From contig NZ_MVDE01000002.1 in the NCBI RefSeq assembly GCF_002843385.1, positions 1 to 64,000 on the forward strand: 64,000 nt of DNA, read 5' to 3'. A model generated the notes under the pieces. It did not search any database. It was given only the letters and a program-made list of their open reading frames with translations, and had not been told where the DNA came from. A program made the translations under genes and the position numbers. The stretch is from Labilibaculum manganireducens. Its GTDB lineage: Bacteria; Bacteroidota; Bacteroidia; Bacteroidales; Marinifilaceae. Position 1 is the stretch's first letter. Every line of letters starts with the position of its first letter. Below are positions 27,022-32,155 of the stretch, in pieces.

Positions 27022-29496
27022 TTACATTGGATCGACGTCAAAATTAATTTGAATAGATTTAAATTGATCCATGCTTTTTAGATGATTTGCATGTTGATTT
27101 AAAATCCATTTGGCTTTAGATGGGGAACTTTTCTTTTCTATTTTTAAAAGGATATTAACGATGTATAAGTTTTGAATTCGGTTAATAACAGGCGATTGAG
27201 GCCCAAATACACGAATGCCAAAAATTTTCCGTAAAGATTTTGCCAAGGTTTCTGATGCCTGATTTACCAGAGTTTGGTTTTTGTGTTTTAAACAGATGTT
27301 GATTAAGCGGTAAAAAGGCGGATAAATAAATTCTTTTCTTTCTGCCAATTGATCGGAGTACATCGAAATATAATCGTTTTCGATTACATTTTTTATGATT
27401 GGGTGTTCGGGAGTATAAGTTTGTATCAGTACTTTGCCTCTTTTCTTTTTTCGTCCGGCACGTCCGGAAACCTGAGCCATCATCTGAAAACTCCGTTCGT
27501 AGGCACGAAAATCCGGGTAATTTAGCATTGAGTCGGCATTTAGCACACCAACCAAACTCACATTATCAAAATCGAGCCCCTTCGAAACCATTTGTGTGCC
27601 CACTAAAATATCGAGTTCCTGATTTTCGAATTTGTAAATGAGCTTTTCATAGGCCATCTTTTTTCGGGTGGTATCCAAATCCATTCTTGCAATTCTTGCA
27701 TCAGGAAAGAAACCCGTTAATTCCTCTTCAATTTTTTCAGTTCCAAAACCTTTGTCTTCAATTTCGGTTGAACTGCAATGTTCACAGCTGGTTGGCGGAT
27801 GAATACTGTGAGCACAGTAATGGCAAACCAACTGATTGTTGAATCGGTGGTATGTTAAGCTTACAGCACAGTTTGGGCAATGAGGAACCCACCCGCAGCT
27901 TTTGCATTCCAGATAGGGTGAATATCCTCTTCTGTTTTGAAATAAAATAATCTGTTCCTTATTTTTCAGGCAAGTCTCCATCATTTGCATCAACTCAGGA
28001 GAGAACATCGATTTCATCTGTTTTTTCCGTTTGGCTTCCTTTACATCAGCAATAATTATTTCAGGCATTTCCAGATTCTGGTGACGCTGAAACAATTCTA
28101 CCAAACCGTATTTGCCCGTTTTGGCATTGTAGTAGGTTTCTATTGCGGGTGTGGCAGTGCCCAATAAAGTTTTTGCCTGATGCAGATGAGCCAGATAAAT
28201 AGAAGCATCTCGTGCGTGGTATCGTGGAGCCGGATCGAATTGTTTGTACGTGTTTTCATGTTCTTCATCGACAATTATTAATCCTAAATTTTTGAAAGGC
28301 AAAAATATTGATGAACGAACACCTAAAATTACCTGATAGGCAGTATCAGGATTGTTTTGATTGATGTTGTTGTAGATTTCTACCCGTTCGGCATCGTTGA
28401 ATTTTGAATGGTAGATTCCCACTTTATTTCCAAATACAGTTCGCAGCCGATTGATGATCTGAGTTGTTAAAGCAATTTCCGGCAACAGGTAAAGTACCTG
28501 TTTCCCAAGTTGTAACTGCTCCTGAATCAGATGGATGTATATTTCTGTTTTTCCACTTGAGGTGACTCCGTGGAGCAGTACACAGTTCTTCTCTTCAAAG
28601 TTTTCACGGATCTCAGCAATTGCTTTTTCCTGATATTCATTCAATTCTTTAAGTCCTGAAGTTTCGGCATGTGACAGATCGATTCTATCCAGTTTCTCAT
28701 GGTAAATTTCAAGAATGCTTTTTTCCACCAAACTTTTTAAAACGCTTTTGGAAGCTGCTGTTGACTTTAAAAGTTCGGGGACTGAAACTTTTAGAGCATT
28801 TTCTTCGAAGTAGTGTTTGGAAAGATTAAGATAGGAGAGGAGTATCTCCTGTTGCTTTTTTGCTCTTTTTAAGTCATTAATCAGATCGCCCATTTCCGAT
28901 TCGCTAAAATCAGATGCCAATCGAACAAACTCCTTTTTCTTTTCCTTGTAATGGTTAATAATTTGTTCTTCGATGGAAACAGCTCCTTTTTCGAGTAGTG
29001 ATTTTACTTGAGGAAGCGTATTTTTTAATCCTGTGGCCTGATTTAAGGCAGAAATATTCACGTCTTTTGAATGCTTTAGTACATTCAAAATTTGCTCCTC
29101 GGTTTTGCTAAGAGCTTCCAAAGTCTGAAAATCTTCGTTTGCAGTTATCTTGGTTTGGCTTTCCAGCTTTAATCCTGAAGGAAGTGCCGCTTTAAAAACG
29201 TCACCTAAAGTACATTGGTAATATTGTGATATCCACTCCCAAAAATTGAATTGAAATGAATTGATAATCGGAGATTCATCGAGACAGGTAATAATGTCCT
29301 TAGTTGAATAATCTGCAGGAGCTGTGTTGTGAATGTTTTTTACAATTCCGGTGTAGAATTTTTTACTGCCGAAAGGAACAACTACCCTTTTTCCAATGGC
29401 CAAATCAGCTTTTAGTTCCTCGGGAATAGAGTAGGTAAAAAGCCGGGCCAATGGAAGTGGCAGTATGATATCTGCAAATTTGGTAGTTTTGTTCAT
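27022..29496 (-). CDS. priA: Primosomal protein N' (PriA helicase)
   Basis: The replication-restart helicase reloads the replisome at collapsed forks. The start at ATG 29496 gives MNKTTKFADIILPLPLARLF; the upstream ATG at 29517 would lie before the predicted transcript start. From this start it has 824 residues. The helicase core holds Walker A LLHGVTSSGKTEIY and the DEEH box (VDEEHENTYKQ). Paired cysteines in CKSCGWVPHCPNC and CHYCAHSIHPPTSCEHC form the two zinc sites. Domain order and length agree with PriA. Confidence 0.95.
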   Translation of the reverse strand: MNKTTKFADIILPLPLARLFTYSIPEELKADLAIGKRVVVPFGSKKFYTGIVKNIHNTAPADYSTKDIITCLDESPIINSFQFNFWEWISQYYQCTLGDVFKAALPSGLKLESQTKITANEDFQTLEALSKTEEQILNVLKHSKDVNISALNQATGLKNTLPQVKSLLEKGAVSIEEQIINHYKEKKKEFVRLASDFSESEMGDLINDLKRAKKQQEILLSYLNLSKHYFEENALKVSVPELLKSTAASKSVLKSLVEKSILEIYHEKLDRIDLSHAETSGLKELNEYQEKAIAEIRENFEEKNCVLLHGVTSSGKTEIYIHLIQEQLQLGKQVLYLLPEIALTTQIINRLRTVFGNKVGIYHSKFNDAERVEIYNNINQNNPDTAYQVILGVRSSIFLPFKNLGLIIVDEEHENTYKQFDPAPRYHARDASIYLAHLHQAKTLLGTATPAIETYYNAKTGKYGLVELFQRHQNLEMPEIIIADVKEAKRKKQMKSMFSPELMQMMETCLKNKEQIILFQNRRGYSPYLECKSCGWVPHCPNCAVSLTYHRFNNQLVCHYCAHSIHPPTSCEHCSSTEIEDKGFGTEKIEEELTGFFPDARIARMDLDTTRKKMAYEKLIYKFENQELDILVGTQMVSKGLDFDNVSLVGVLNADSMLNYPDFRAYERSFQMMAQVSGRAGRKKKRGKVLIQTYTPEHPIIKNVIENDYISMYSDQLAERKEFIYPPFYRLINICLKHKNQTLVNQASETLAKSLRKIFGIRVFGPQSPVINRIQNLYIVNILLKIEKKSSPSKAKWILNQHANHLKSMDQFKSIQINFDVDPM

Positions 29497-29514
29497 TCGT
29501 GTGTTCTTTTTCCC

Positions 29515-29522
29515 CAAAGTTA
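29515..29522 (-). promoter_or_regulatory. Promoter element that fixes the priA start
   Basis: TAACTTTG on the minus strand matches TAnnTTTG. Transcription would begin near 29508, leaving only about a dozen bases of leader before ATG 29496. Confidence 0.45.
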
Positions 29523-29591: not shown

Positions 29592-31439
29592 TTAGATAGA
29601 AAGAATATCGTTAAGACTCATCAGTGAATCCTTAACTTTCTTCTTGTTTTTAATGGTTTTGTTGAATGAAACGTGTGAAACCTCACCGTTAACAATTCCA
29701 ACCATAATACTCTTTTGATCATCCAGTAAGGCTTCAACTGCGGCAACACCTAAAGTAGATGCAGTTACACGGTCGAAAGCCGATGGAGAACCACCTCTTT
29801 GCATGTGTCCCAAAACAGATACTCTAATGTCGTACTCAGGATGTTCTTTTCCAATTTCCTTTGCAATTGTGTAAGCGCCACCAGATTTGTCACCTTCGGC
29901 TACAATTACAATACCACTTGATTTGTGTTCTTTATATCCTTTTTCAAGATATTTTTGCAATTCCTGAGTGTGGGTTTCTTTTTCAGGAATTAAAATAGCT
30001 TCAGCTCCTGTTGCAATTCCACTTCGCAAAGCAATAAAACCAGCATCACGACCCATTACTTCAATAAAGAACAAACGGTTGTGAGCACTTGCAGTATCGC
30101 GGATTTTATCAACAGCGTCAATTACTGTGTTGATTGCCGTGTCGTAACCAATCGTGTAATCGGTACCAAACAAATCATTGTCAATAGTACCTGGAATTCC
30201 CACTACAGGGATATCAAATTCCTGTGTAAAAATTCGGGCTCCGGAAAATGTACCGTCACCACCAATAACCACAAGAGCATCTATTTTATTGGCAATCATT
30301 TGCTCATGCGCTTTTTTTCTTCCCTCAACAGTTCTGAATTCTTCACTTCTGGCCGAACGAAGAATGGTTCCGCCTTTTTGAATAATGTTGCTTACATCAT
30401 GAGATTTCATTTTCTTAAAATCACCATGAATTAAGCCTTCGTATCCTTGCAGTACACCTACAACTTCAATTTTGTTATAGATAGCAGCACGAACAACAGC
30501 TCTGATGGCTGCATTCATTCCCGGAGCATCGCCTCCTGAAGTTAAAACTCCAATTTTCTTAATTTTAGACATGCTTAAATCGTTTTTATTTTCAAGTTTT
30601 ATTTTTTCAATTGTATCATTCATCAGCCAGGTGGGAGTGGATGTTGCTCCGCTTACACCAACCGATTTTGCATTCGCAAACCAGTCCATATTCAACTCAT
30701 CAGGGCAAGTGATAAAGTAACTGTTCCGATTTGTTCTTTTACAGACATCGAACAGTAATTTTCCGTTCGAACTTTTTTTTCCGCTCACAAAAATGATCAC
30801 ATCGTGTTTGCCTGCAAAATCCTTAAGTAAGGGAACACGATTCGATACCTTCCTGCAAATTGTATCATTAATGCTAAGGCTGTTTTTGCATTCTTTTTTC
30901 AGATATTCTGAAATTTCGGCAAAGCCTGAAATGGTTTTTGTTGTTTGCGAAAACAGAACAACCGGCAAGCTGAAGTTCACCAATTTTAAATCATCTGTAT
31001 TTTCAACAACAATTGCCTTGCCTTCGGTTTGACCGACTAAACCATTTACCTCGGCATGACCTTTTTTACCGTATATAATTATTTGACCGTTTGACTTCTT
31101 AATCTCCCGGTATGCTTTTTTTATCTTTTTTTGCAGGTTTAAAACTACCGGGCACGAAGCATCAATAATTTCAATATTTTGATTTTTTGCTGTTTCGTAA
31201 GAGGTTGGAGGCTCTCCATGTGCTCTAAATAAAACTTTTTTTCCTGATAGTTTCGAAAACTGATCGTGATTGATGGCTTGTAACCCTTGAGCATTAAGAC
31301 GATCAACTTCGATATTGTTGTGAACGATATCACCAATACAGAAGAGTTGATTGTCCTCTTTCAGTATTTCTTCCGCTTTATTTATGGCATTTACAACACC
31401 AAAGCAGAATCCGGCGTTAGGATCAATTTCAATATTCAT
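29592..31439 (-). CDS. Fusion of IspH (HMBPP reductase) and PfkA (6-phosphofructokinase)
   Basis: One uninterrupted frame of 615 codons encodes two complete enzymes. Residues 1-289 are IspH, the 4Fe-4S enzyme of the last MEP-pathway step. The three cluster cysteines are Cys12 (GFCFGVV), Cys96 (DASCPVV) and Cys195 (DTICRKVSN), and His40, His74, His128 and Glu130 (KGHAEVNG) are in place. Residues 290-615 are ATP-dependent PfkA: GVLTSGGDAPGMNAAIRAV, GGDGTFSGA, catalytic PGTIDNDL with Asp420 and Asp422, MGRDAGFIA and GHMQRGGSPSAFDR. The junction is KNDLSMSKIKK with no stop. Met290 (ATG at 30572) looks like a normal PfkA start and could allow separate initiation. An alternative is an ancestral gene pair whose stop was lost, or a sequencing error. 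It follows cmk by 23 bases. Confidence 0.88.
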   Translation of the reverse strand: MNIEIDPNAGFCFGVVNAINKAEEILKEDNQLFCIGDIVHNNIEVDRLNAQGLQAINHDQFSKLSGKKVLFRAHGEPPTSYETAKNQNIEIIDASCPVVLNLQKKIKKAYREIKKSNGQIIIYGKKGHAEVNGLVGQTEGKAIVVENTDDLKLVNFSLPVVLFSQTTKTISGFAEISEYLKKECKNSLSINDTICRKVSNRVPLLKDFAGKHDVIIFVSGKKSSNGKLLFDVCKRTNRNSYFITCPDELNMDWFANAKSVGVSGATSTPTWLMNDTIEKIKLENKNDLSMSKIKKIGVLTSGGDAPGMNAAIRAVVRAAIYNKIEVVGVLQGYEGLIHGDFKKMKSHDVSNIIQKGGTILRSARSEEFRTVEGRKKAHEQMIANKIDALVVIGGDGTFSGARIFTQEFDIPVVGIPGTIDNDLFGTDYTIGYDTAINTVIDAVDKIRDTASAHNRLFFIEVMGRDAGFIALRSGIATGAEAILIPEKETHTQELQKYLEKGYKEHKSSGIVIVAEGDKSGGAYTIAKEIGKEHPEYDIRVSVLGHMQRGGSPSAFDRVTASTLGVAAVEALLDDQKSIMVGIVNGEVSHVSFNKTIKNKKKVKDSLMSLNDILSI

Positions 31440-31462: not shown

Positions 31463-32155
31463 TTACAGCTCATTCATGCGATCAACAATCCAATCCAATT
31501 GTTCGTCCGGAGTCAAATGGCTGTTGTTGAGTACAATTGCATCCTCAGCTTTTCGGAGCGGACTTTCATCACGGTTTTCATCGATATAATCTCTTTTTGA
31601 AACGTTCTCTCTGATTTCGTCCAATGAAATGTTTTCTCCTTTATCTTTTAGTTCTTTATAACGGCGAATGGCTCTTATTTCCACATCGGCAGTCATAAAT
31701 ATTTTTAAATCGGCATTTGGGAAAACCACAGTTCCAATATCCCTGCCGTCCATTATAACTCCACCTTCCTTGCTTAATTCACGCTGAAAAGCCACCATTT
31801 TCTCACGCACAAATTTGATTTTCGCAATCAGACTTACGTTGTTCGAAACAGCCATTTGGCGAATCTCATCTTCAACCAATTCAGCATTTAAATAAGTCTC
31901 GTGACGCTGTTTTTCAGTATTGTACTGAAAAGAGATGTTTACCTGATCGATTAAATGAGCCAGCTTATTTTCATCTACTTTGTCGCCGGAAATTAAGTTG
32001 TTTCTCATTGCAAAAAGAGTAACCACCCGATACATTGCGCCACTGTCAATATAAGTGTATTTAATTTTTTTTGCCAAATCCTTGGCAACAGTACTTTTTC
32101 CGCACGACGAATGTCCGTCGATTGCTATAATTAGTTTCTTTTCAGGTATATCCAT
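31463..32155 (-). CDS. cmk: Cytidylate kinase
   Basis: A 230-residue kinase of CMP and dCMP. The start at ATG 32155 (MDIPEKKLIIAIDGHSSCGK) puts the P-loop DGHSSCGKST near the N-terminus; a longer frame upstream adds residues not seen in the family. YIDSGAMYR, MDGRDIGTVVFPNADLKIFM and the late KRDYIDENRDESPLRKAEDA are conserved Cmk motifs. It lies between porQ and the IspH-PfkA gene on the same strand; porQ next to cmk recurs in Bacteroidota. Confidence 0.94.
   Translation of the reverse strand: MDIPEKKLIIAIDGHSSCGKSTVAKDLAKKIKYTYIDSGAMYRVVTLFAMRNNLISGDKVDENKLAHLIDQVNISFQYNTEKQRHETYLNAELVEDEIRQMAVSNNVSLIAKIKFVREKMVAFQRELSKEGGVIMDGRDIGTVVFPNADLKIFMTADVEIRAIRRYKELKDKGENISLDEIRENVSKRDYIDENRDESPLRKAEDAIVLNNSHLTPDEQLDWIVDRMNEL

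Follow-up and report, generated by a model that had tools for sequence, protein, structure and literature searches.

The locus at 29592..31439 on the minus strand of the window (the whole stretch of 64,000 nucleotides of Labilibaculum manganireducens DNA that was analysed) raises the question of whether IspH and a phosphofructokinase (PfkA) are truly encoded by one gene and, if so, which proteins that gene yields and what their joining means. An earlier note, made from the DNA letters, had described a full IspH and a full PfkA in one frame with no stop between them.

The ispH-pfkA frame and its two domains

The frame starts with an ATG at 31439 and runs uninterrupted on the minus strand for 615 codons to a stop codon ending at 29592, whereas the plus strand read from 29592 contains many stops. 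Its 615-aa product matches both families in Pfam and NCBIfam. The IspH domain occupies residues 1-284 (30588..31439, minus strand). It is complete, with the Pfam model LYTB (PF02401) matching residues 4-280 at 274 bits and the curated model NF002187 matching the full length, residues 1-284, at 349 bits against a cut-off of 276, and it is homologous to the solved IspHs 3dnf and 4h4c. Three cysteine motifs are present (GFCFG at residue 10, SCPV at 95, and TICR at 193), as are the conserved His, Glu, and Ser motifs, located by motif position and by alignment to solved IspH. We take the cysteines to be those of the cluster and the His, Glu, and Ser residues to play the roles generally ascribed to them in IspH. 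By these matches the fused domain is a member of the IspH (LytB) reductase family, and HMBPP reductase function is predicted for it.

The PfkA domain extends from Met290 to the stop codon (29592..30572, minus strand) and is likewise complete: PF00365 (PFK) matches residues 294-570 at 379 bits, and TIGR02482 (PFKA_ATP) matches residues 294-594 at 424 bits, above its cut-off of 371 for the ATP type. This half is homologous to the solved bacterial phosphofructokinases 3pfk and 1pfk and carries the motifs GGDGT (393), PGTIDND (416), MGRDA (462), and GHMQRGGSP (544). We read GGDG together with PGTIDND as the signature of the ATP type rather than the PPi type and presume from general knowledge which residues of these motifs are catalytic. 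The family tests identify the domain as an ATP-dependent PfkA, whose activity is predicted.

Between the two domains, residues 285-293 (30561..30587, minus strand) form a linker delimited by the junction alignment and by AlphaFold2 pLDDT values below 50 at residues 285-291. The junction reads KNDLSMSKIKK, as the earlier note had it, and the ATG of Met290 begins at 30572. The calculated mass is 67.2 kDa for the full chain and 35.1 kDa for a PfkA starting at Met290. An AlphaFold2 monomer model shows IspH with confidence, its last helix at residues 270-284, and the first PfkA strand at 295-300, while the PfkA half is poorly modelled. The model agrees with a flexible tether between two independent domains; since it came from a shallow alignment of 13 rows and has a pTM of 0.47, we read nothing into the placement of the domains.

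The neighbors on the same strand are cmk for cytidylate kinase (31463..32149, minus strand; PF02224, 227 bits), 23 nt upstream, and priA (27022..29517, minus strand), identified by its PriA domains, as the next gene downstream. The fused gene is the only ispH match found in its own genome, so the IspH activity must be supplied by the fused chain or by a fragment released from it through proteolysis. Phosphofructokinase has three further homologues in this genome, C9, C3, and C21, which were classified over the matched stretch only: the C9 homologue has its best score with PFK_mixed, under that model's cut-off, and exceeds the threshold of NF002872, the general ATP-PFK model; the C3 homologue passes neither of these models; and the C21 homologue scores best with a PPi-type model, below its cut-off. 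A promoter-like site (TTTG-N19-CATTTTTG, with one mismatch) lies within the ispH codons 223 nt before the ATG of Met290. It is present in five of the eight genomes scanned, drawn from the fused genomes and from the related group g17; in a sixth the -7 box at that position differs, two have none, and the site may be there by chance.

Both halves of the gene are under purifying selection, as judged from the low pN/pS over nine overlapping pairs, which is 0.15 for IspH and 0.11 for PFK. The PFK value is, if anything, too high, because in the PfkA of one genome, G001 (325 aa), a gap of one codon puts the later codons out of register here and in the all-pair synonymous counts given below. The repeat of the synonymous test omits G001, as do the pair-set comparisons. 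For the linker (codons 278-289) pN/pS is 0.63, a value owed chiefly to a very low synonymous rate (0.081, compared with 0.45-0.48 in the domains).

Distribution and origin of the fusion

The family sample comprised 56 genomes including the window's own, and IspH was matched in 52. One uninterrupted frame of IspH and PfkA, 616-635 aa long, recurs across species in 16 of these 52 (own genome included), which belong to five genus groups: the window's genus (8 of 9 genomes), g10 (2/2), g9 (1/1), g7 (1/1), and g5 (4/5). No ispH was seen in the ninth genome of the window's genus, which is 63% complete, or in the fifth g5 genome, which is 80% complete. Among the matches listed, 14 of 59 genomes (own included) cover the 614 query residues in full, uninterrupted by a stop, and 6 more match these residues when stops are read through. 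Across the fused groups the IspHs are down to 68% identical.

The A-rich junction is a place where a one-base slip could open such a frame, which would speak for a sequencing or assembly error. However, the 16 assemblies share the open frame while differing codon by codon, and all 16 junctions, when read in the DNA, have identical spacing. The open frame in so many assemblies means that ispH-pfkA is neither a chance occurrence nor an assembly error, a possibility that we now consider negligible. The alignment of junctions in relatives, which the earlier note had proposed, contradicts a sequencing error. The same note had named relatives with separate genes, together with proteomics showing two separate proteins only, as a sign against the fusion; relatives with separate genes do exist, in g17 and in other groups, alongside the 16 family genomes that keep the frame open. 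On these sequence comparisons, ispH-pfkA is confirmed as a real, conserved gene fusion in a marine group of Bacteroidales.

One of the 16 fused genomes, G028 (L015, G028:C1:2438352-2443190; L144), looks composite. From ATG290 to about +960 nt its pfkA half, compared in 30-nt steps, shows no difference from that of G061, a genome of another genus group, while its ispH and the DNA downstream match G017, unlike its pfkA half. In the rpoB region, rpoB itself and several conserved genes likewise go with G061, whereas r5, a gene resembling that of ribosomal protein L10, goes with G017. G028 is most likely a chimeric assembly, or possibly a case of gene replacement; it was counted among the fused genomes but left out of the codon counts.

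How the two genes were joined is suggested by g17. All five g17 genomes have ispH and pfkA of identical length, frame, and spacing, with a TAA at codon 286, four codons before the PfkA ATG; the junction reads IKLEIK*IISMSRIKK in g17 and IKLENKIIISMSRIKK in g7 and g9. Measurements in eight other family genomes gave a distance of 9 to 87 nt between the stop codon and the ATG in seven of them; in the eighth, G029, ispH and pfkA overlap in different frames and were counted as separate. A hand count puts the genomes in which the two genes are adjacent or fused at no fewer than 40 of the 59. The identical spacing with a TAA in g17 and the common adjacency of ispH and pfkA support the view that the fusion was made, or was undone in g17, by a stop-codon change between neighboring genes. 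The suggestion in the earlier note that an adjacent pair lost its stop is borne out to this extent, with the direction being either gain or re-splitting.

The trees are compatible with both directions. With G028 present, g17 falls outside the fused group in the IspH tree (support 74/40), weakly inside it in the PfkA tree, and inside it in the concatenated tree and in the rpoB trees, in which g17, g10, and g1 are grouped with support of 87/98; one fused clade is rejected by rpoB (AU p 0.040, G028 counted as fused). These trees are distorted by G028, whose pfkA, rpoB, and some further conserved genes are the same as, or group with, those of G061. In a seven-gene tree of 19 rows without G028, a branch with support of 68/79 separates the fused rows from g17, and holding g1, g10, and g17 together is not rejected by the same genes (AU p 0.163). 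The group g17 may therefore be sister to the fused group, which would imply a single gain, or lie inside it, which would imply an ancestral fusion and re-splitting in g17.

Outside the fused group, no IspH-PFK fusion was found in samples of the order, class, and phylum, whose draws overlap one another, by searches and reading of the DNA. Single-domain IspH surveys yielded frames of 550 aa or longer in 1 of 124 IspH-bearing genomes of the class and in 1 of 146 genomes of the order, both times the window's own genome, and in 4 of 130 genomes of the phylum, again including its own. The other three phylum frames (G669, G675, and G692) read as extensions in an overlapping frame ahead of IspH, and inspection by eye found no PFK motif in them. 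In a search of 393 genomes of the order, a stop-free match over the whole query came, among the matches listed, from G000 alone; eight others in that list covered the query only across stops, and their pfkA frames are separate. The reported open-frame length appears to join two same-frame matches of one query across stops, so that a length above 600 aa obtained with a two-domain query does not indicate fusion. Eight genomes with such reported lengths (G018, G332, G144, G396, G201, G359, G048, and G421) have a separate pfkA in the DNA, and 11 further candidates were rejected for the same reason (G040, G057, G387, G343, G160, G219, G036, G409, G258, G380, and G360); of these, G040 and G057 had shorter reported frames with pfkA cut by the contig end, and G258 has no IspH motif in the stretch read. 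A different fusion was observed in another Bacteroidales genome, G085 (L159:378-1703, minus strand), where the frame of IspH (residues 10-288) continues into a pyridoxamine-5-phosphate-oxidase-like domain (PF01243, 44.8 bits, residues 310-397); that junction also has a Met.

These results bear on whether the fusion means anything to the cell. A neutral loss of the stop, tolerated without functional coupling and without selection against it, would agree with the variable linker letters at codons 286-289, with the high pN/pS of the linker compared with 0.11-0.15 in the domains, with the fact that g17 lives with the same spacing and a stop, and with the lack of an independent IspH-PFK fusion in the order, class, and phylum samples. 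Against this, the frame has stayed stop-free across five genus groups whose IspHs have diverged so far, but a neutral fusion could last equally long. We give this reading an even chance, and it is compatible with the gene having two products, as discussed below.

Met290 as a putative internal start

The earlier note had suggested that Met290 could still give free PfkA, and several features of the junction speak for this, with exceptions. With G028 left out, all 15 fused genomes have ATG at codon 290 (30570..30572, minus strand), as do all five g17 genomes. The pentapeptide IKKIG that follows is also conserved, so the conservation of the Met could be partly incidental. We also trained a start-site profile on 53 other ORFs of the window that do not overlap and were taken mechanically rather than curated, with their first ATGs set against 339 internal in-frame ATGs; its leave-one-out AUC is 0.889. 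ATG290 scores 5.38, a value reached by 1 of the 339 internal ATGs, and 41 of the 53 ORF starts score at or below it. Within this gene, the score is 1.43 at the ispH start (reached by 17/339) and 2.11 at another internal codon, ATG273 (reached by 11/339). With ATG273 scoring fairly high and the ispH start scoring below ATG290, the score alone is no proof of use. In six of eight other fused genomes scored, ATG290 does about as well as in the window's gene (1 to 4 of 339), but it is weak in G001 (89/339 as high) and G017 (92/339), where the internal start may be decaying. The same ATG is the first after the stop in g17 and scores 4.45 in the four genomes scored.

Codons 278-293 (30561..30608, minus strand) are proposed as a putative internal translation-initiation region on the basis of this score and of synonymous change, for which differences were counted against the expectation for each amino acid. 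Over three branch-disjoint pairs, codons 279-293 are the lowest of 597 fifteen-codon spans (1 synonymous difference against 10.6 expected), and they are again the lowest in two further pair sets (1 against 8.0 and 2 against 7.5); the three sets share genomes, the span length was chosen after several had been viewed, and the ranks are uncorrected for that choice. Two single deep pairs show no such minimum at these codons (ranks 78/589 and 49/587). With twelve-codon spans the minimum lies at the junction in two of the three pair sets and at codons 451-462 in the third. When all pairs are counted, the best junction span ranks 3rd or 4th of 604 at eight codons and 7th to 12th of 600 at twelve, and spans of PfkA within codons 450-468 fall below the junction. 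Codons 451-462 (30054-30089 of the window, minus strand) are thus a second stretch of very low synonymous change.

The junction is A/T-rich and has little predicted folding: lower structure is predicted at 43 of the 610 codon positions in the window's gene and at 34 to 182 of 610 in seven fused genomes, the junction being only moderately unstructured in G014 (182), G016 (132), and G012 (116). The window's gene has A at -3, -12, and -13 of ATG290 and T at -6. According to Baez et al. (2019, PMC6847099), members of this phylum begin translation without a Shine-Dalgarno sequence, with adenines at -3, -6, -12, and -13 and a low degree of structure as the modulating features; the A/T-rich, weakly folded junction agrees with that description. 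The old PfkA start appears to have been kept, given its invariance, start-like context, and low synonymous change, with the exceptions noted above.

We favor a gene with two products, a 67-kDa bifunctional enzyme and a free 35-kDa PfkA from Met290, and regard this as the probable state of affairs. A stop-codon change within a cmk-ispH-pfkA operon, in which the position of cmk is taken from the window's own genome and co-transcription is presumed, would have joined the two genes. Translation from codon 1 would give the 67-kDa chain with IspH and an ATP-dependent PfkA separated by about ten flexible residues, and initiation at the former pfkA start codon could add free PfkA. Because bacterial PfkA forms tetramers, the two kinds of subunit could assemble together, with zero to four IspH units on each tetramer, and the internal start would set that number. 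An effect on flux is conceivable, and the fusion may, as the earlier note proposed, tether a glycolytic control point to the MEP pathway.

A fusion without a second product is the main rival. The internal ATG would then be a relic, the PfkA from this locus would all be fused, and free phosphofructokinase would come from the three other homologues, whose presence in the genome agrees with this, as do the weak start contexts of G017 and G001 and the missing synonymous dip in the two deep comparisons. However, the start context is strong in the window and in six of eight other fused genomes, the junction is the synonymous minimum of fifteen-codon spans in three pair sets, and Met290 is invariant; we consider this rival rather unlikely. 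The two-product reading could be carried further to a regulatory device, in which an oxygen-labile Fe-S IspH sits on the PfkA tetramer and its cluster state or HMBPP occupancy alters PfkA activity. This is a speculative proposal that we hold to be improbable. If it were true, the ratio of full-length to internally started PfkA would set the coupling between glycolytic flux and isoprenoid output in these facultative or anaerobic marine bacteria.

A retained downstream start would show how two central functions can be fused without losing the free form of one. The g17 genomes provide a natural control, being a related group that differs by a stop codon at identical spacing, and the genus of the window has cultivated species. 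The nucleotide-level test used here is also applicable to IspH-RPS1 and other bacterial fusions.

Relation to known IspH fusions

IspH has been found fused to several partners, and the reason has been posed as an open question (Rao et al. 2015, PMC4746011). The IspH-RPS1 hybrids of Clostridia and others (PMC4746011, NF000907) resemble ispH-pfkA in having a full IspH followed by a C-terminal partner in many species, and the reductase was active in the one tested. Here the partner is PfkA instead of ribosomal protein S1, and the gene reaches 236 bits with NF000907 against a cut-off of 624. The start-like internal ATG is described as a feature of ispH-pfkA and is not meant as a contrast with the RPS1 hybrids. 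The IspH-UbiA hybrids of sulfate reducers likewise have a C-terminal enzyme as partner and occur mainly in one lineage; however, UbiA acts on isoprenoids, whereas PfkA is glycolytic. Both the RPS1 and the UbiA hybrids occur in anaerobes (PMC4746011). With PfkA as its partner, the fusion described here is a member of neither hybrid class.

The same survey describes IspH fusions from single species, with CMP kinase, a helicase (in Bacteroidales bacterium CF), UDP/PNP phosphorylase, and, in Chromera velia, fructose bisphosphatase, and remarks that these single-example partners all act in phosphorus metabolism (PMC4746011). Two of them touch on the present case: fructose bisphosphatase catalyzes the reverse step of the metabolic node of PfkA, and CMP kinase is the upstream neighbor of ispH-pfkA. 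Phosphofructokinase is not named among the single-species cases in the parts of that paper used, while IspH-PfkA spans five genus groups. Searches of the full text of openly accessible papers found no title or abstract on an IspH-PFK fusion, and the terms isoprenoid, lytB, and phosphofructokinase did not occur in the searched text of a fusion survey (PMC4921024). The remark of the earlier note that it knew of no such fusion agrees with this search and with Rao et al.

A further likeness is to the separate ispH and pfkA neighbors of other Bacteroidales, which are adjacent in the same way but have a stop codon between them, and of which those in g17 share the spacing and the frame as well. IspH fusions as such are already known, and ispH-pfkA adds a central glycolytic enzyme to the partners of IspH. 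What is apparently new is PfkA as that partner, its occurrence in five genus groups, and an internal start that has apparently been kept.
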